A stretch of DNA of 63,239 bases from an uncultured Marivita sp. (GTDB lineage Bacteria; Pseudomonadota; Alphaproteobacteria; Rhodobacterales; Rhodobacteraceae): assembly GCA_947503115.1 (NCBI GenBank), contig CANNCS010000006.1, positions 1-63,239 of the forward strand, written 5' to 3'. Made by a program: the position numbers and the translations under genes. Below are positions 49,674 to 57,557 of the stretch, piece by piece (position 1 is the stretch's first letter; every line of letters begins with the position of its first letter). The notes under the pieces were generated by a model that was not told the origin of the DNA, ran no database searches, and saw only the letters and a program-made list of their open reading frames with translations.

Positions 49674-50537
49674 CTAGGTCAGAGCTGACCAGAAGGCTTC
49701 TGCCGCTGGTCCAAGATGGCGGTTGTCTGGCCGAATCTTACGCAATTGCCGTTTGGTGATCGGATCGTTGGGCATCAGGAACACCAAGTCGCCAGATTGA
49801 TTGTGTACTGCGCTGCGTGGCAACACAGTTGCGCCAAGCCCAGTGCGCACGAATGACAGAAGTGCTGTTGTGTTGCGAGCTTCTAGGCTGCATTCGGCCA
49901 AGAGGCGCGACACGCTTGCGCTGTCCACCAGCCGACAGAGCGGATTGGCAATCAAAGGCTCGTGCTCCAGCAGGCTCCAAGAGGGCGCATCGTTGCCCAA
50001 GGCTGCTGAGTGCAGTGCACCGCCGGCACGGCAAACGATGCCAAGGTCGTCCTCAAAAACGAGATTGCCATCTTGGGGATCATCCATCGACGCCGAGAGG
50101 ATCCCGATATCAGCCGCATCAGTTAAAATGCGGTGGCGTACTGTGGCGCTGTCCACATCACTGATATCGAGACGCACATCCGGTCTGATCTGGCGAAACG
50201 CCGTAATGATGCTTGGCAAAATAGTGATCGTCGCAGACGGAACTGTGGCGATGCGTACGGTCCCGGCAGTTGAAACAGCATGTCGTCGGATCGCATCCAC
50301 GCTTTGAACAAAAGCATCTGTCGCACGGCCGCTTTCTTCAAGCACAAGTTGGCCCAAAGGGGTTAGTCGGTTTTTGCGATCTGTTTCGAACAAGGGTGCG
50401 CCGATATCGTCTTCAAGCTGCGCCAGCATCATGGAGACGGCTGATGGGGTTCGTCCCAATTGCGTGGCCGCTCCGTTCAGAGAGCCATGTTCGGCCACCG
50501 TTCGAAAGGTTCGAAGCATTTCCAGTTTTATCGCCAA
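49674..50537 (-). CDS. LysR-type transcriptional regulator
   Basis: 287 residues: N-terminal winged HTH (1-60) with LRTFRTVAEHGSLNGAATQLGRTPSAVS, then a periplasmic-binding-type effector domain (about 90-287) with GTVRIATVPSATITILP. It is divergent from the ALDH gene across 93 bases that hold an inverted repeat, the usual arrangement of a LysR regulator with its target operon. It most likely senses the substrate, or an intermediate, of the pathway encoded by 50631-57521 and also represses itself. Confidence 0.93.
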   Translation of the reverse strand: MAIKLEMLRTFRTVAEHGSLNGAATQLGRTPSAVSMMLAQLEDDIGAPLFETDRKNRLTPLGQLVLEESGRATDAFVQSVDAIRRHAVSTAGTVRIATVPSATITILPSIITAFRQIRPDVRLDISDVDSATVRHRILTDAADIGILSASMDDPQDGNLVFEDDLGIVCRAGGALHSAALGNDAPSWSLLEHEPLIANPLCRLVDSASVSRLLAECSLEARNTTALLSFVRTGLGATVLPRSAVHNQSGDLVFLMPNDPITKRQLRKIRPDNRHLGPAAEAFWSALT

Positions 50538-50547
50538 TTCAGTATTC

Positions 50548-50572
50548 CTGAAATTTTATTAAGAATTTCCAG
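50548..50572. promoter_or_regulatory. Inverted repeat, candidate LysR operator
   Basis: CTGAAATT-TTATTAAG-AATTTCCAG: arms AAATT/AATTT with flanking CTG/CAG, one base offset, 11-35 bases ahead of the LysR start. The core is A/T-rich, unlike the surroundings. T-N11-A type LysR sites are A/T-rich dyads of this size. The position allows control of both divergent genes. Confidence 0.5.
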
Positions 50573-50630
50573 ATTGTCTGAAGTCAGTGTCGCCGTCTAG
50601 GTGGGCAAGACGACAAGCTGAGGAATGACT

Positions 50631-52079
50631 ATGATGAATACCGAACTCTATATCGACGGCCGCTGGACTGCGGGCACCACCGAAATCGAGAATCGGAATC
50701 CATCCGATGTGTCTGACCTGATCGGACTCTATTCTCAGGCCAGTGCCGATCAACTGGATGAAGCTCTCGCAGCTGCTCGTCGGGCGCAACCGATCTGGTG
50801 GGCGGCCGGAATTCAAAAGCGCCATGATGTGCTGATGGGGATCGGCACTGAGCTGATGGCGCGCGCGGCTGAAATCGGTCGAATCGTGGCCCGTGAGGAA
50901 GGCAAGCCACTGGCCGAGGGCACTGGCGAAGTCTACCGTGCTGGCCAGTTCTTCACCTATTTCGCGGCAGAGGTTCTGCGCAATCAGGGCGACCTTGCTG
51001 AAAGCGTCCGCCCCGGCGTCGAGATCGACGTGCGTCGCGAGCCCGTGGGTGTGGTTGCCATTGTGTCGCCGTGGAACTTCCCGGTGGCGACACCTGCCTG
51101 GAAAATTGCCCCGGCCCTAGCTTTTGGCAACGCAGTGGTTTGGAAACCCGCGAACCTGACACCAGCAAGTGCCGTAGCACTGACCGAAGTCATTACGCGT
51201 CAGGATATCCCGGCTGGCCTTTTCAACCTTGTGACCGGTCCGGGCCGCGATGTTGGGCAGCGGCTGGTCGAAAGCCGTGATGTTGATGCAATCAGCTTCA
51301 CCGGATCGGTACCTGTTGGTCGTGGCATCGCAGCTTCTGCTGTCACCAACATGACAAAAGTGCAGATGGAGATGGGGTCGAAGAACCCTATGATCGTCAT
51401 GGACGACGCGGATCTTGATCTTGCTGTGGTGCATGCCGCAGGTGCTGCGTTCGGCGGAACAGGGCAGAAGTGCACGGCCGCTTCGCGCCTGATCGTTCAT
51501 TCAGCGATCCATGATGCGTTCGTCGAAAAGCTCGTCGTAGCCGCGCAGGCCTACAAGGTGGGACATGCGCTGGACGAGGGGACGCAGATCGGCCCTGTTG
51601 TGTCAGAAAGCCAGCTTACCCAGAACATGGATTACGTGACCCTCGCACAGCAGGAAGGTGCGGAGCTGTTGTGCGGCGGCACACGGCTTGATCGCCCGAC
51701 CGAGGGGTATTTCATGGCTCCCACTGTTTTTGCCGGTACGCGCAACGACATGCGCATCAACCGCGAAGAAATGTTCGCGCCGATCACCTGCGTCATCAAG
51801 GCTGACAGTTATGATCAGGCGTTGACGATCGCCAATGACAGCGAATTCGGACTTACGGCTGGCATCATGACGCGCAGCCTGTCCCGCGCCAGCCATTTCC
51901 GGGCGAATATGCGCGCGGGATGTGTGATGGTGAACCTTCCAACAGCGGGCACTGACTACCACGTACCGTTCGGCGGGCGTGGTGCGTCGTCCTTTGGCCC
52001 ACGTGAGCAGGGGCGCTATGCTGCTGAATTCTACACCACGGTAAAAACGGCCTATGTCGCCGCGGGAACACCGGAATGA
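50631..52079 (+). CDS. Aldehyde dehydrogenase family protein
   Basis: NAD(P)-dependent oxidation of an aldehyde to a carboxylate; about 482 residues. SPWNFPVATPAWKIAPALAFGN, FTGSVPVGRGIA, the catalytic-Glu motif MEMGSKNP (Gly to Ser beside the usual GG) and the nucleophile motif GGTGQKCTAASR are all there. Three ATGs compete (50625, 50631, 50634); GAGGA at 50620-50624 favours 50631 or 50634. First gene of the LysR-flanked operon; its stop overlaps the next start (ATGA). The substrate is unknown; a betaine aldehyde or semialdehyde-type product is an inference from neighbours. Confidence 0.93.
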   Translation: MMNTELYIDGRWTAGTTEIENRNPSDVSDLIGLYSQASADQLDEALAAARRAQPIWWAAGIQKRHDVLMGIGTELMARAAEIGRIVAREEGKPLAEGTGEVYRAGQFFTYFAAEVLRNQGDLAESVRPGVEIDVRREPVGVVAIVSPWNFPVATPAWKIAPALAFGNAVVWKPANLTPASAVALTEVITRQDIPAGLFNLVTGPGRDVGQRLVESRDVDAISFTGSVPVGRGIAASAVTNMTKVQMEMGSKNPMIVMDDADLDLAVVHAAGAAFGGTGQKCTAASRLIVHSAIHDAFVEKLVVAAQAYKVGHALDEGTQIGPVVSESQLTQNMDYVTLAQQEGAELLCGGTRLDRPTEGYFMAPTVFAGTRNDMRINREEMFAPITCVIKADSYDQALTIANDSEFGLTAGIMTRSLSRASHFRANMRAGCVMVNLPTAGTDYHVPFGGRGASSFGPREQGRYAAEFYTTVKTAYVAAGTPE

Positions 52080-53071
52080 GTGTTTTGATCGACGGCCTGC
52101 AATACGCGAACTGGTCTGAAAAGATCTTCCGCCAGATGCGTGCGGGAGGGGTCGATGCGGTGCACGTCACGATCACCTATCACGAGACCTTCCGTGAAAC
52201 CGTGTTGAACATTGAACAGTGGAACCGCTGGTTCGAAGCCTATCCCGACTTGATCTTTCAGGGCCGAACGGCGGCCGATGTGATGCGCGCAAAGGAGACC
52301 GGGCGCACGGCAATTTTTTTTGGCTCGCAAAATCCATCCTGCATTGAGGATGATATCGGTCTGGTCGAGATACTGCACACGCTGGGTTTGCGGTTCATGC
52401 AACTGACCTACAACAACCAGTCGCTGCTTGCATCGGGATGTTACGAAGATGACGATACTGGGCTGACGCGTATGGGCCGCGAAGTTGTCACCGAGATGAA
52501 CCGCGTCGGTCTTGTCGTGGACATGAGCCATTCCGGCGAACGCTCCACGCTTGAGGCGATCGAGTATTCGAGCCGTCCGATAACGATCACTCACGCCAAC
52601 CCGGCAAGCTGGCACGCGGCACTTCGCAACAAATCCGAAACTGTCCTGCGGGCCTTGGGTGAAACCGGCGGGATGCTGGGCTTTTCGGTCTACCCGCATC
52701 ACCTGAACGGAGGTAGCGCCTGCGCCCTGTCAGATTTCTGTGGTATGGTCGCGCGTACGGCGGATCTGATGGGCATCAACCAGATCGGTATTGGTACGGA
52801 CCTCTGTCAGGACCAGCCCGACAGCATTGTCGAATGGATGCGCGTCGGCCGGTGGACCAAACAAATCGATTATGGCGAGGGCAGCGCGGCAGCGCCGGGC
52901 TTTCCACAGATGCCGGATTGGTTCGAGACCAATCAGGACTTTTCGAACATCGCGGCGGGTTTGCGGCAAGTCGGTATGTCCGATGCCGATGTTGCAGCAG
53001 TCATGGGCGGGAATTGGTTGCGGTTCTTCGAAGACAGTTTCACGGCGCAGGGCTCCGAAATCGGATCATAG
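52076..53071 (+). CDS. M19 dipeptidase-family protein lacking canonical metal ligands
   Basis: 331 residues of the renal/membrane dipeptidase (M19) fold without signal peptide. The family start D-G-H-x-D reads I-D6-G7-L-Q-Y, so the first His/Asp pair is gone, and the bridging E-G reads FGSQN, so Glu is Gln. The later His residues remain (VVDMSHSG, ITHAN), and the C-terminal GIGTDLCQDQ and VMGGNWLRFF fit the fold. A similar M19 group (IDGL..A.W) is, from memory, encoded with dimethylglycine/betaine catabolic genes in Pseudomonas. Activity and substrate are open. Coupled to the ALDH (ATGA). Confidence 0.87.
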   Translation: MSVLIDGLQYANWSEKIFRQMRAGGVDAVHVTITYHETFRETVLNIEQWNRWFEAYPDLIFQGRTAADVMRAKETGRTAIFFGSQNPSCIEDDIGLVEILHTLGLRFMQLTYNNQSLLASGCYEDDDTGLTRMGREVVTEMNRVGLVVDMSHSGERSTLEAIEYSSRPITITHANPASWHAALRNKSETVLRALGETGGMLGFSVYPHHLNGGSACALSDFCGMVARTADLMGINQIGIGTDLCQDQPDSIVEWMRVGRWTKQIDYGEGSAAAPGFPQMPDWFETNQDFSNIAAGLRQVGMSDADVAAVMGGNWLRFFEDSFTAQGSEIGS

Positions 53072-53130
53072 GCGTCAAGGATCAACAGACCATAAGGGTC
53101 GTTTGCTTGTTTTGTCAGGGAGGGCAAAAA

Positions 53131-54681
53131 TTGAGCGATACCACACAAACCGGCGGCTTCGGCGCCACCTTCGGGCGGGTAGACAAACCGCTTTTCGCAG
53201 TCACAGGCGGGTTCATCCTGATTTTCTGCGGTCTTGCTCTGTTCAATATCGACCTTCTGTCCGCGATGGTCGATTGGGGCTTCAACTTTGCCGCCACCTA
53301 TTTCGGGCTTTACTGGCAGGTTCTGTTGCTGGCGACCTTCGTCATCGGTCTTGTTCTCTGCATCCTGCCGGGAAGCCGCACAAAGCTTGGCAATATAGCC
53401 CAGCCGGAATTCACCACGTTTCAGTGGGGTTCCATGATCATGTGTACGCTGCTTGCCGGAGGCGGTGTGTTCTGGGCCGCGGGCGAGCCGATTGCCCATT
53501 ACCTGTCGACACCGCCTTTGTTCGGTGATCTGAGCGCCGATCCGCAAGCACAGGCGCATGCCGCGTTGGCACAAAGTTTCATGCATTGGGGCTTTTTGGC
53601 ATGGGCTATTCTGGGCGCACTGACCACGGTCATGCTGATGCACTACCATTACGACAAAGGCTTACCATTGGCGCCCCGCACGCTGCTTTACCCGGTGTTT
53701 GGCGATCGTGCGATCAATGGTCCAATCGGCCTGATTGCGGACGCGTCCTGCATCATCGCAGTGGTCGCGGGTACTGTTGGGCCGATCGGATTTCTTGGCC
53801 TTCAGATGTCTTATGGTTTGAATGCGCTGTTCGGCATTCCCGATACCTTTGCGACCCAGACCGTCGTGATCCTTGCGCTGGCCAGCCTATACACGATCTC
53901 TGCAATCACCGGACTGTCGAAGGGAATTCAGATCCTTTCCAAGATTAACGTGATCCTGGCCTTTGTGCTGATGGGGTTCATGCTGTTGGCTGGTCCGACC
54001 TTTTTCATCTTCGATGGGTTCGTTGGGGGACTTGGCGTCTACCTGAGCAACTTCTTCGACATGGCGTTGTACAGAGGCGATTCCGGGGTGTTCGGCGCAC
54101 CTGGATGGCTTGGCTGGTGGACCGTGTTCTTCTGGGGTTGGTTCCTGGGCTATGGACCGTTGATGGCGATCTTTATCGCACGGGTCAGTCGCGGTCGTTC
54201 GATCCGTTCGATCATTGTCATGCTCGCAATTATCGCACCGCTGGTCACCAATTTCTGGTTCACCATCATCGGCGGAACCGGCATTGCTTTGGAACAAGCG
54301 ACACCGGGTGCGATTTCGGGACCGTTCGAAGGTTTCAACCTGCCTGCGGGCCTCTTGGCGACGACGCAGGCGATGCCGCTCGGATTTCTGCTGTCGCTGT
54401 TGTTTCTTGTTCTGACGATGATCTTTGTGGCCACCACCAGCGATTCCATGAGCTTTGTGATTGCCACGTCCATGTCTGACGACACACCTTCGGTTGCCTT
54501 GCGCGCATTCTGGGGTTTGGCGATGGGAGTGATGGCGTTGATCCTGATCTCAACAGGTTCTGGCGGGATCGGGAAGCTGCAAAGCTTTATCGTTGTGACG
54601 GCTGTTCCAGTGTCGCTGGTTCTGCTGCCATCGCTTTGGGATGCGCTGCGGATCACACTGGCGCTTGGCAAGAAAGCCTGA
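53131..54681 (+). CDS. BCCT family transporter
   Basis: Betaine/choline/carnitine-type symporter of the inner membrane, 516 residues and about 12 helices. GGGVFWAAGEPIAHYL and the BCCT signature region WTVFFWGWFLGYGPLMAIFIARVSRGRSIR are clear. FVATTSDSMSFVIAT follows, as in other BCCT carriers. Start TTG at 53131 is preceded by AGGGAGGG with good spacing; an upstream in-frame extension overlaps the M19 gene. It lacks long cytosolic osmosensing tails, so uptake for catabolism seems likelier than osmoprotection. Sits between the M19-like enzyme and two unknown genes. Confidence 0.93.
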   Translation: MSDTTQTGGFGATFGRVDKPLFAVTGGFILIFCGLALFNIDLLSAMVDWGFNFAATYFGLYWQVLLLATFVIGLVLCILPGSRTKLGNIAQPEFTTFQWGSMIMCTLLAGGGVFWAAGEPIAHYLSTPPLFGDLSADPQAQAHAALAQSFMHWGFLAWAILGALTTVMLMHYHYDKGLPLAPRTLLYPVFGDRAINGPIGLIADASCIIAVVAGTVGPIGFLGLQMSYGLNALFGIPDTFATQTVVILALASLYTISAITGLSKGIQILSKINVILAFVLMGFMLLAGPTFFIFDGFVGGLGVYLSNFFDMALYRGDSGVFGAPGWLGWWTVFFWGWFLGYGPLMAIFIARVSRGRSIRSIIVMLAIIAPLVTNFWFTIIGGTGIALEQATPGAISGPFEGFNLPAGLLATTQAMPLGFLLSLLFLVLTMIFVATTSDSMSFVIATSMSDDTPSVALRAFWGLAMGVMALILISTGSGGIGKLQSFIVVTAVPVSLVLLPSLWDALRITLALGKKA

Positions 54682-54695
54682 ACCTGTCTCAAATG

Positions 54696-54720
54696 GTGCG
54701 GAGGATAGCATCCTCCGCAC
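54696..54720 (+). other. Strong intra-operon hairpin
   Basis: The perfect 11-bp inverted repeat GTGCGGAGGAT / ATCCTCCGCAC with an AGC loop lies in the 66-base gap between the BCCT and 559-residue protein genes. No T-run follows (TGAAAAC), so it is more likely an mRNA-stability or partial attenuation element than a full terminator; its GGAGG is sequestered in the stem. Confidence 0.6.
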
Positions 54721-54747
54721 TGAAAACCGTCACGCAAAGAGGGCATC

Positions 54748-56427
54748 ATGGACTGCGCATCCCTGAATCCGTTTCCCCAAGCCGCAGCGTTCCGGCGTTC
54801 CCGGTCTGAGGTAATGCGTCTGGCCCGTATGGGCTGTGCACATCCAACGCGGTTGTCCTTCCTGCGTACGCTCTTGCGGCGTGTGACGGATCAGGGATGG
54901 GTGTTCGCCCGTCCGGTTTGGGATGTCGATGACACTGGCGTCGGTCGTGCCGTGTACCGTGCCACCGGGCCAGAGCGCACCTATAGCCTTGTTGCTTTTG
55001 CCCATGACCTGCCGGATGAGATGCGGTCGGATCGAGTGATCGCAACCGCATGGGATGCCACGTTTACTATGTTTGACGGAGAGCCGTCCCAAGACGATCT
55101 GGATCGGCTTCAGGCCAACGTGCCGCTGCAAGAGGCCGGACGGATCAGCCGCAAGGAGCTGTCGCTCAGCCGCGCCAATCGATCAGTGCGGTTGTTCGAG
55201 CACGTGATCGATCGTTTGGCTGCTGGCCAACAGCCGGATTTCGAAGAGGTCGAATCGGTTGGTTACCTGATGCGCACTACGGCCGTTTATGGCTCGGGTA
55301 AATTCGGTGCGGCTGATCTGGCGTCCATCTCAGGCCGCCCAGAACTGTGCGCGCCGTTTCAGGTCGAGATGCTGTCTGTCTGGCTGACCCGGCAATTCAC
55401 AGTCGATATCGCCGAGCATCTGGCGCGGGTACGCGGAGGAGACCGCGCGGTTCAGCTTGATCCGGCGATCAAGCGAACGCTTGGGGTTGGCAACTCTACC
55501 GGGTTGGGTATGGCGCCTTTCCTTGTCCGTCACCCTGTTCTTCTCAACAACTGGATGATGGCGCGGGAAGAGGCATTGGCGCGTGTGCGTGCCCAAGACA
55601 CTGCTGACCCCGCTTGCGTGGCAGGGTTTCGCGCAGCCCTGTCCGACGCGCAAGAAAACGCAGCGAAATGGGCATCGACCCATCCCATTCAGGTTACAAA
55701 GCTGGATGAGTTGCGCCGTGATCTAGCGAAGCTTGCCGATCATACCCGCGAATGGCCACCGCTCAATGACCCGCACCCGTGGGACGCTCTGTGGCGTTGG
55801 GCGGAGGAGGAATTATCGCTGGAAGGACAGGAGGCATTGCTGTCGGTCATGTTGGAACCGCATGGTGATCTGATCGACGGTCTTGCGGATTGCATGATCG
55901 CTGACGAACAGGCGACGTTCCGGCTTGATGGTGCCATGACGGTCTCAGCTCTGTCGGATCGGCTTGAGCGTGACTATGATTGGGCACTCGACATCGACTT
56001 CGACCAGCCAGAGAACGCCGCGCGCTTTTGGTATGTGTCTGAAGAAAAGCTGGAACCCCGGCTTGGCAATCGGTTCGAAGAGGATGGCGCCGCGCTAGAA
56101 CAACCGCTTTGCATCGCGCGGCTAGCCAAAGACCTGCATATCGCGTTGGCGATGTGGCGCGGTGATACCCCGCTTGCCACTTTTCTGCTTGCCCACCCTG
56201 AACACCGTCTGATGACGCGCCGGGCGCAGGTGGTACAACGCCATCCTTACTCCGAGGTGCGCGACAACCTAATCGCCGCCGAGATGCTGCCGATTGATCT
56301 CATGCGTTGTAAACTGGCGTTCTTCGGGGCCAGCCGGTTTGACCCACGGTCCGATAAATGGGTGCGGATCAGTCTGTTCCAAGGTCTACCGTACCCGTCA
56401 GACCTTTGCCCGGAGGGATGGGCATGA
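54748..56427 (+). CDS. 559-residue protein of unknown function
   Basis: Not recognised. Soluble by appearance, no signal peptide or membrane helix. Regions that look conserved and enzyme-like are TGPERTYSLVAFAHDLP near 75-91, TTAVYGSGKFGAAD near 175-188 and GVGNSTGLGMAPFLVRHPVLLNNWM near 245-270, the last Gly-rich. The C-terminus has SEVRDNLIAAEML and DKWVRISLFQGLPYPS. The frame is long, GC-balanced with neighbours and overlaps the DUF3726 start by ATGA, so it is a real gene of the operon. A catalytic role in the BCCT-linked pathway is inferred from context only. Confidence 0.85.
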   Translation: MDCASLNPFPQAAAFRRSRSEVMRLARMGCAHPTRLSFLRTLLRRVTDQGWVFARPVWDVDDTGVGRAVYRATGPERTYSLVAFAHDLPDEMRSDRVIATAWDATFTMFDGEPSQDDLDRLQANVPLQEAGRISRKELSLSRANRSVRLFEHVIDRLAAGQQPDFEEVESVGYLMRTTAVYGSGKFGAADLASISGRPELCAPFQVEMLSVWLTRQFTVDIAEHLARVRGGDRAVQLDPAIKRTLGVGNSTGLGMAPFLVRHPVLLNNWMMAREEALARVRAQDTADPACVAGFRAALSDAQENAAKWASTHPIQVTKLDELRRDLAKLADHTREWPPLNDPHPWDALWRWAEEELSLEGQEALLSVMLEPHGDLIDGLADCMIADEQATFRLDGAMTVSALSDRLERDYDWALDIDFDQPENAARFWYVSEEKLEPRLGNRFEEDGAALEQPLCIARLAKDLHIALAMWRGDTPLATFLLAHPEHRLMTRRAQVVQRHPYSEVRDNLIAAEMLPIDLMRCKLAFFGASRFDPRSDKWVRISLFQGLPYPSDLCPEGWA

Positions 56428-57152
56428 CCAGCGCAGCCATCGACGATCTGGAGCCGAATGACCCCACGCGCTCCGGACCACCCCTTTTGGGTGAAGACGG
56501 AGCGTGGTTGTCGAATAACGAGATCGAGCAATTGTGCCTCAAGGCTGCGCGGGGCGCTGGCATGAGTTGGGGGCTTGCCGAAGAGGCGGGTTTCGCGGCG
56601 GCTTGGCTTGCGCGGCGCGGAATTGACGGTCCGTTGGCGGTTCTGACACAGCTCAACCATGCGCAGGGCCGTGGGTGGAACGAGATCTGCCCAGTCGTTG
56701 CCCCGGATCGTTTGTACCCTGCCGATGGGCATATTCTTTGCCCCATCGCATTGGGAGCGGCACTTTGCGATCATGGGACGCTTCTTGGTCTTGGCGCGGA
56801 TCAAAAGTCGCTTCGAATTGGTCCGGTAAGCCATCCGATCTTGCTTTTGCCATTCCTGTCCGACCTTGCGCGAACATGTGGTGTGAATCTGCGGCTAGCA
56901 TGGCCTGGCGGCACGGTGCTGCTTGGAGTGGATGGCAGCCTATTGGGTGACGTTGACGTACTTGGCGCGGAAACTGCATTTGAGGCAGAGATCTCGGGGC
57001 ACGTCGGTTCGGTCAGCCACGATCAACGCACCCCGCAAACAAGGCTTGTGGCGTCTGACACATTGGGCGGGCTCAACACATACGCTTTGACAACCACTGT
57101 TCCCGCGTCCGACGCCTCGCGCGCGGGAGCCGGTGCCGACGATAACGAATAA
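56424..57152 (+). CDS. DUF3726 domain protein
   Basis: 242 residues, soluble. LSNNEIEQLCLKAARGAGMSWGLAEEAGFAAAWLARRGIDG near 30-70 is the DUF3726 block, then LCPIALGAALCDHG and a beta-rich C-terminal part ending in a disordered tail. It starts inside the stop codon of the 559-residue protein (ATGA), so the two products are made together and may form a complex. No function is known to me. Confidence 0.83.
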   Translation: MTSAAIDDLEPNDPTRSGPPLLGEDGAWLSNNEIEQLCLKAARGAGMSWGLAEEAGFAAAWLARRGIDGPLAVLTQLNHAQGRGWNEICPVVAPDRLYPADGHILCPIALGAALCDHGTLLGLGADQKSLRIGPVSHPILLLPFLSDLARTCGVNLRLAWPGGTVLLGVDGSLLGDVDVLGAETAFEAEISGHVGSVSHDQRTPQTRLVASDTLGGLNTYALTTTVPASDASRAGAGADDNE

Positions 57153-57167
57153 CCTTTAGGACGGTTC

Positions 57168-57521
57168 ATGACCCTTCAACGCCTGCACCCCGGCCCCCGC
57201 ATGAGCGAAGCGGTCCGCATCGGAGAAATCGTGTTTTTGGCAGGGCAGATCCCCACAACTTTGACCGCTGACATCACCGTGCAAACCCGCGAGGTTCTGG
57301 GCGAACTGGATGCTGTCATGGCCGAACTGGGGGGATCGAAGGCCGATATCGCCTCGGTTCAGGTCTGGCTGAGTGACATGGCAGACTTTCAGGGTATGAA
57401 CGCGGTTTGGGATGAATGGGTCCACCCCGAACATCCTCCAGCGCGTGCAACTGGTGGTGTTGCGCTGGCGCGTCCGGGGATGCGTGTCGAAATGATCGCC
57501 GTTGCGCGGGCGCCTAGATGA
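57168..57521 (+). CDS. RidA (YjgF/YER057c) family protein
   Basis: 117 residues, single RidA domain; these trimers hydrolyse reactive enamine/imine intermediates of amine metabolism to ketones and ammonia. RIGEIVFLAGQIP near 17-29, the mid-protein VQVWLSDMADF, and the C-terminal arginine motif GMRVEMIAVA are present. Its placement at the end of the ALDH-M19-BCCT operon suggests an imine or enamine intermediate in that pathway. A strong terminator overlaps the 3' end. Confidence 0.92.
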   Translation: MTLQRLHPGPRMSEAVRIGEIVFLAGQIPTTLTADITVQTREVLGELDAVMAELGGSKADIASVQVWLSDMADFQGMNAVWDEWVHPEHPPARATGGVALARPGMRVEMIAVARAPR

Positions 57522-57528
57522 CCCTTGC

Positions 57529-57557
57529 CCGCCGGATCAGATCAATCCGGCGGTTTT
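57529..57557 (+). terminator. Rho-independent terminator of the LysR-flanked operon
   Basis: Stem CCGCCGGAT / ATCCGGCGG, 7-base loop, then TTTT, starting eight bases after the RidA stop and running into the 3' end of the convergent kinase gene. It fixes the right boundary of the 50.6-57.5 kb operon. Confidence 0.8.

Follow-up and report, generated by a model that had tools for sequence, protein, structure and literature searches.

A RidA-ending operon of an uncultured Marivita species that may serve the uptake and catabolism of homarine or a related N-methyl pyridinium

We describe here an operon at positions 49674 to 57557 of a contig from an uncultured Marivita sp. (assembly GCA_947503115.1, contig CANNCS010000006.1; the whole stretch analysed, 63,239 nucleotides, is called the window). 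It consists of a divergent LysR-type regulator gene followed by genes for an aldehyde dehydrogenase (ALDH), an M19-like protein, a BCCT carrier, a protein of 559 residues that we call P559, a DUF3726 protein and a RidA-type imine/enamine deaminase. We propose, with a probability of about 0.6, that this operon serves the inducible uptake and catabolism of homarine (N-methylpicolinate) or of a close N-methyl pyridinium compound. An earlier sequence-only reading of the window had taken the cluster for an undescribed pathway; this is probably not so, since a homarine pathway linked to N-methylglutamate dehydrogenase (Mgd) was published in 2026 and our comparison of relatives leads to the same N-methylglutamate route. 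The accessible part of PMC13390433 cites a conserved homarine pathway (Ferrer-Gonzalez et al. 2026, Nat Microbiol, doi 10.1038/s41564-026-02313-7) and says that homarine catabolism involves Mgd. The cluster is probably a RidA-ending variant of this newly described system.

In one ocean survey homarine was given as up to 3% of particulate carbon (accessible part of PMC8269262), and the author correction to that survey, as far as its text is accessible, states that the concentrations were overstated (PMC10134881). If our reading is true, the cluster would help to tell homarine-consuming bacteria, for which P559 and DUF3726 could serve as markers, and would contain a ring-opening enzyme whose predicted fold has no match among solved structures.

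Conservation of the operon and its exchangeable positions

A scan of genome contigs with P559 gave 109 relatives from Alpha- and Gammaproteobacteria, and the 80 best of them were retained. Gene content was counted over the 51 of these 80 loci that have at least 6 kb before and at least 3.5 kb after P559, and the genes were called by tblastn within 9 kb, with thresholds of 60 bits for RidA and 45 bits for Ldh_2. The M19 gene is present in 48, the DUF3726 gene in 49, the ALDH gene in 43 and the LysR gene in 37 of the 51. Of the 72 loci in which an open reading frame (ORF) follows P559, 63 show an overlap of 4 or 1 bases between the two (77 loci examined; L048, L105 and L107, in which the P559 match contains stops or frame breaks, were excluded from this count, from P559 residue conservation and from the tree). 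Since the gene set recurs across both classes, it is more than a chance assembly. The neighbourhoods show the co-conservation for which the sequence-only reading had asked and bear out its catabolic set, with a BCCT carrier (elsewhere an OpuAC-type betaine ATP-binding cassette (ABC) importer), an ALDH, a hydrolase-fold protein and an imine/enamine-type end enzyme.

Four further genes come and go: BCCT was found in 25 loci, the OpuAC-type ABC importer in 10, RidA in 20 and Ldh_2 in 15. RidA and Ldh_2 never occur together (0/51; neither in 16), nor do BCCT and the OpuAC-type importer (0/51; neither in 16), although the RidA and Ldh_2 thresholds overlook distant members, such as a RidA-like gene, 40–41% identical and beside LysR, in the genomes G154 and G252. 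From these counts, the operon looks like a functional unit in which two positions, the importer and the last enzyme, can be exchanged. P559 is carried by 39 of the 289 genomes sampled from the window's class, the Alphaproteobacteria. The ALDH-M19-P559-DUF3726 set is present in the Olavius algarvensis Gamma 3 endosymbiont, and in another gammaproteobacterial locus (L077) two M19 matches lie side by side upstream of P559.

The P559 tree (87 rows, quick method, nine rows taken from hand-picked plasmid records) places the window in a mainly rhodobacteral clade of 30 rows, with a Shimodaira–Hasegawa-like approximate likelihood ratio (SH-aLRT) support of 97. RidA is carried by 24 of the 30 clade rows, the window included, and all 23 RidA loci called by tblastn lie inside the clade; in six clade rows no RidA was detected. 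Because Ldh_2 forms occupy several other branches of the tree, we infer that RidA has replaced Ldh_2. RidA-family genes also occur near P559 outside the clade, namely in three plasmid records of the tree, in Neorhizobium and in G154 and G252, so there may have been more than one such exchange.

The concentration of the RidA form in 24 rows of one clade with an SH-aLRT of 97 would also suit an unlikely alternative, in which homarine is left to the Ldh_2 forms and the substrate of the RidA/BCCT clade is a different N-methylated heterocycle, such as trigonelline or some other N-methylpyridinium carboxylate. Two substrates would fit the two copies with different neighbours in Phaeobacter inhibens DSM 17395 and the two P559 each in G154 and G252, and in the accessible part of PMC8269262 R. 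pomeroyi is reported to have grown less effectively on homarine than on trigonelline. Against this, the ALDH (where found) and M19 proteins of the Ldh_2 loci are 68–79% and 69–80% identical, respectively, to those of the window, and a single C5 imine could serve as substrate for either end enzyme.

Neighbouring genes of the SoxA/Mgd family

In Ruegeria sp. TM1040 the operon runs LysR, ALDH, M19, BCCT, P559, DUF3726, Ldh_2; next to it lie an AraC-type regulator gene and a set of four subunit genes carrying a sarcosine oxidase annotation. Copy A of P. inhibens DSM 17395 is arranged likewise, except that no Ldh_2 is annotated, and in Roseateles sp. XES5 a four-subunit set with the sarcosine oxidase annotation adjoins the operon, together with purU and folD. 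The latter two genes were rejected as general operon neighbours, being found in 0 of the 80 loci and in XES5 only. Plasmid pPGA1_262 of DSM 17395 holds two operon versions (L111 and L137), one next to Mgd-type genes and the other next to dimethylsulfoniopropionate demethylation genes.

In the window genome, mgd-type genes lie on contigs other than that of the operon. On one of these, C1, a matching set stands beside an AraC-type regulator gene, dmm-like and mgsABC-like genes, a type III glutamine synthetase gene (gmaS) and Tmm, and the cluster resembles that of R. pomeroyi with tmaR and mgdABCD, as described in the accessible part of PMC13390433. To the C1 copy the alpha subunit of the TM1040 set shows 73% identity and that of the DSM 17395 set 72%, and both fall into one group with it, supported by an SH-aLRT of 100; for this reason these two neighbour sets are most likely Mgd. 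The window genome contains three alpha subunits of the SoxA/Mgd family (L135, L136 and L134), of which those on C1 and C96 are 73% identical to each other and that on C80 is about 43% identical to both.

Across the class sample, the SoxA/Mgd family occurs in 37 of the 39 P559-positive genomes and in 75 of the 250 P559-negative ones (Fisher 3e-15; by genus 2e-12), an association from which relatedness is not removed and in which sarcosine oxidases are included; the 75/250 is maybe slightly low, the two best candidates per genome having been scored in one scan and up to 21 in the other. A family member lies within 10 kb of P559 in three of the 39 genomes. In G065 it is 61% identical to the C1 copy and about 7.5 kb away; in G207 (1.2 Mb genome, guanine plus cytosine (GC) content 0.30 around the locus) it is about 6.6 kb away, adjoined by Tmm and formate-tetrahydrofolate ligase genes; and in G161 (1.6 Mb genome, GC 0.32) it is about 2.5 kb away.

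Operon proteins and a proposed reaction scheme

The ALDH (50625-52079, + strand; Pfam Aldedh) contains the catalytic motifs with Glu and Cys, residues that we take to have their usual catalytic roles, and its best NCBIfam models are 2-oxoglutarate-semialdehyde dehydrogenases, every one below cut-off. This closeness to C5 semialdehyde dehydrogenases would suit a proline-betaine or N-methylproline route, in which the ALDH would make N-methylglutamate from its semialdehyde and the other genes would serve uptake and side products; the BCCT and OpuAC importers fit stachydrine, the N-methylglutamate would feed Mgd, and genes for Rieske-type dioxygenases are found a few kb away in DSM 17395 copy A (L137:7466-8620) and Pseudomonas sp. 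MPC6 (L114:1-927). However, no Rieske-type or N-methylproline oxidase family is found among the ten annotated of 15 unlabelled extra clusters that recur in at least four loci, and the P559/DUF3726/M19 triad stands without an annotated adjoining ALDH in Sinorhizobium and Neorhizobium. We regard such a route as highly improbable and keep to the opening of a pyridinium ring.

The M19-like protein (52076-53071, +) matches the Pfam Peptidase_M19 profile with 241.7 bits (cut-off 26), and its best solved relative is 2i5g ('amidohydrolase', E 3.9e-60). Ordinary M19 dipeptidases bind their metals through an HxD motif and a bridging Glu. The window protein starts with DGLQYANW, an LQY-type start shared by at least 72 of 73 sequences, and in the alignment from the 2i5g search the dipeptidase Glu position is taken by Gln85, invariant in 73/73; H152 and D242 are kept in 73/73 and H173 in at least 70/73. 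Judged by these residues, the protein is not an ordinary dipeptidase and its metal site is degenerate. The DGL start and the Gln replacing Glu are common to 2i5g, which we take to be PA5396, presumably encoded beside dimethylglycine genes and so in a different operon context; a literature search found nothing linking PA5396 with dipeptidase.

The M19 fold, and the recurrence of the P559/DUF3726/M19 triad with other ABC importers, could indicate a betaine-like substrate outside the N-methyl-heterocycles, an acylated or amide-linked amino compound on which the M19 protein would act as an amidase. This we consider very unlikely: the invariant Gln and the LQY-type start speak against it, and it leaves the Mgd-type neighbours and the DpkA-like reductase unexplained. 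Of the substrates guessed in the sequence-only reading, homarine is retained, and the acylated amino compound is not favoured, though the homarine scheme given below does assign an amide-type hydrolysis to the M19 protein.

The BCCT carrier (53131-54681, +, TTG start) matches its Pfam profile with 492.5 bits and is a candidate importer of a betaine-like zwitterion. In an alignment with a solved carrier, the stretch FYWAWWIAWSP, whose aromatic residues presumably form the substrate cage, is replaced by FFWGWFLGYGP, a change fitting a different substrate. The RidA protein (57168-57521, +; Pfam Ribonuc_L-PSP, 90.5 bits) keeps R93, which we take to be the active-site Arg of the family, in at least 95% of 24 rows, and its close solved relatives include PSPTO_0102 and PA5083, the latter presumably DguB of D-glutamate catabolism, that is, an iminoglutarate deaminase. 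For the Ldh_2 protein of the TM1040 operon, the best PDB relative is 1wtj, a delta1-piperideine-2-carboxylate reductase (E 4.8e-53). The Ldh_2 of the sister operons thus belongs with the DpkA/Ldh_2 enzymes, whereas the window operon has no Ldh_2 gene. The single Ldh_2 found in the window genome is 37–40% identical to the operon type and was not counted here in view of its neighbouring ORFs (by eye).

P559 (54748-56427, +) has no Pfam or NCBIfam family at E 0.001, and a search with 50 members, relaxed to E 1, brought up only scattered weak matches, with at most three members per family and a best E of 0.0059. The predicted model, built from 50 of 78 alignment rows with the window included, reaches a mean predicted local distance difference test score (pLDDT) of 85.1 and a predicted template modelling score (pTM) of 0.88, and among solved structures neither a sequence match (best E 0.36 in a PDB profile search) nor a fold match (best E 0.19 with Foldseek) was found. 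Two stretches of low confidence, 180-189 and 533-538, contain several invariant residues and could be active-site loops.

The DUF3726 protein (56424-57152, +; 242 residues, Pfam DUF3726) is probably the partner of P559. Its model (51 of 73 rows, window included) has a pLDDT of 87.8, and the 27 best Foldseek matches are all of the Ldh_2 family, the best at E 4.5e-4 and only two below 0.001, with TM-scores of 0.33–0.53; its Sinorhizobium counterpart matches Pfam Ldh_2 at E 0.025, below cut-off. A reduced Ldh_2-like fold is thus predicted, shared in part with the DpkA/Ldh_2 enzymes, from which DUF3726 differs in being about 100 residues shorter and in lacking (by eye) the SHG motif conserved in 22 Ldh_2 rows. 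A literature search found no paper on DUF3726 or on PGA1_262p01.

On these grounds a scheme can be drawn up in which LysR would sense the substrate or an intermediate and the BCCT carrier would import homarine. P559, with the Ldh_2-like DUF3726, would open the pyridinium ring, and the ALDH would oxidize the resulting aldehyde. Since N-methylglutamate would keep the nitrogen, C2 with its carboxylate and C3–C5 of homarine, C6 must be lost; the M19-type protein would release it as formate from an N-formyl-N-methyl intermediate, giving N-methyl-2-iminoglutarate or the enamine. In the Ldh_2 relatives, a DpkA-like reduction would lead to N-methylglutamate, which Mgd would demethylate to glutamate, whereas in the clade of the window RidA would hydrolyse the same intermediate to 2-oxoglutarate and methylamine, and GmaS, Mgs and Mgd, all encoded in the window genome, could recycle the latter. 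Action of RidA and Ldh_2 on the same bond would explain their mutual exclusion, and their exchange predicts a physiological difference between strains that release methylamine and strains that form N-methylglutamate. More tentatively, as a reading less likely than not, we suggest that P559/DUF3726 represents a new class of pyridinium ring-opening enzyme, neither a luciferase-type nor a Rieske oxygenase, with a fold unmatched among solved structures and a degenerate Ldh_2-type subunit, and that the mainly rhodobacteral clade swapped Ldh_2 for RidA and so redirected the homarine nitrogen.

What the analysis shows is the gene content, its co-conservation, the alternation of RidA with Ldh_2 and of BCCT with the ABC importer, the Mgd-type neighbours of some relatives and the predicted folds; the substrate and every reaction of the scheme are inferred. 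Several observations weigh against this interpretation. Pfam recognizes no oxygenase or flavin reductase among the operon proteins; a literature search found no text naming the genes of the homarine operon, and identity with that operon is unproven. RidA and Ldh_2 are both missing from 16 of the 51 loci, L051 (Ldh_2 with an ABC importer) is nested in the RidA clade, and RidA proteins can be general detoxifiers. Because the SHG motif is missing, DUF3726 may not be catalytic but rather a structural or cofactor-holding partner. As to the Mgd link, a SoxA/Mgd-type gene lies within 9 kb of P559 in only one of the 80 loci, at 27% identity. The alpha subunits of XES5, G207 and G161 are 41–51% identical to the C1 copy; with identity so low, and sarcosine oxidase and Mgd forming one family, these sets and the third copy of the window genome cannot be named by sequence. 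That several neighbour sets are indistinguishable from sarcosine oxidase, and that Rieske genes lie near two relatives, lowers our confidence slightly. Finally, the operons of the window and of its nearest relative, L031, lie between an AlkZ-like glycosylase gene and a PfkB-family gene (Pfam), and at this site L032 and L033 (Marivita sp. XM-24bin2 and a second genome) hold M19, P559 and DUF3726 alone, so the full gene set is not always needed there.

A similar triad is found in rhizobia. In Sinorhizobium meliloti and Neorhizobium a remote form of P559 (about 30% identity) occurs with an M19 gene, an ABC importer and another protein where DUF3726 would stand, and no annotated ALDH or Ldh_2 adjoins; on rhizobial plasmids, L113:7986-11432 and L118:7962-11358 show the triad with an ABC importer and an IclR regulator. 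Together with L032 and L033, these triads without ALDH suggest that P559/DUF3726/M19 forms the chemical core, perhaps for another substrate. A trigonelline link of S. meliloti pSymB was discarded, the paper in question having the word in its reference list only.

Layout, regulatory elements and comparison with known systems

The gene content and the divergent LysR gene (49674-50537, − strand; Pfam HTH_1 and LysR_substrate) stand as first read from the window, as shown by Pfam and the ORF coordinates, whereas of three ATGA overlaps claimed only two are found (at 52076 and 56424), the remaining gaps being 59, 66 and 15 bases. The operon ends in a hairpin (57529-57553; 9 base pairs (bp), followed by TTTT, the whole spanning 57529-57557 on the + strand) that overlaps the 3′ end of the convergent PfkB-family gene. 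Its folding energy of −16.8 kcal/mol (z −2.76; 3 of 200 shuffles equally good) upholds the terminator proposed after RidA, and the consensus terminator scan, which needs five T, did not list it. Promoter and terminator scans were otherwise uninformative, with 5 sites against 3.9 expected and 12 against 10.0 expected.

The 87-bp gap between LysR and ALDH (50538-50624), a shared regulatory region, does contain the operator-like dyad noted earlier, GAAATT-N8-AATTTC, but the exact dyad is not conserved in the relatives' gaps and is rejected as a conserved operator; repeated TTCAG/CTGAA half sites are kept instead (by eye; 35 gaps in both cases, window included). A stem-loop between BCCT and P559 (54694-54722, +) has the perfect core GTGCGGAGGAT-AGC-ATCCTCCGCAC and no T run. 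Hairpins of differing sequence occur in this gap in 15 of 27 relatives and in 34 of 108 coding control windows, too weak a difference to claim a conserved element.

The homarine operon is reportedly named homABCDER, and its products are said to be N-methylglutamate and glutamate. Five enzymes and a regulator would match the ALDH, M19, P559, DUF3726, Ldh_2 and LysR genes of the TM1040-type operon. The involvement of Mgd, given for the homarine system in the accessible part of PMC13390433, would be common to the N-methylglutamate route proposed for the operon. Compared with the TM1040-type set that we liken to the homarine operon, the window has RidA in place of Ldh_2, with the BCCT gene inside.

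The trigonelline (Tgn) pathway, with its ALDH and formamide-hydrolase steps and a luciferase-like oxygenase served by a flavin reductase, follows a logic like that of the present scheme, in which an N-methyl pyridinium ring is opened, an aldehyde oxidized and a formamide hydrolysed. Its ring is opened by the TgnA/TgnB oxygenase, which according to the accessible part of PMC8269262 is unlikely to act on homarine. In place of such a luciferase-like oxygenase and flavin reductase, neither of which Pfam finds in the operon, P559/DUF3726 would open the ring here.

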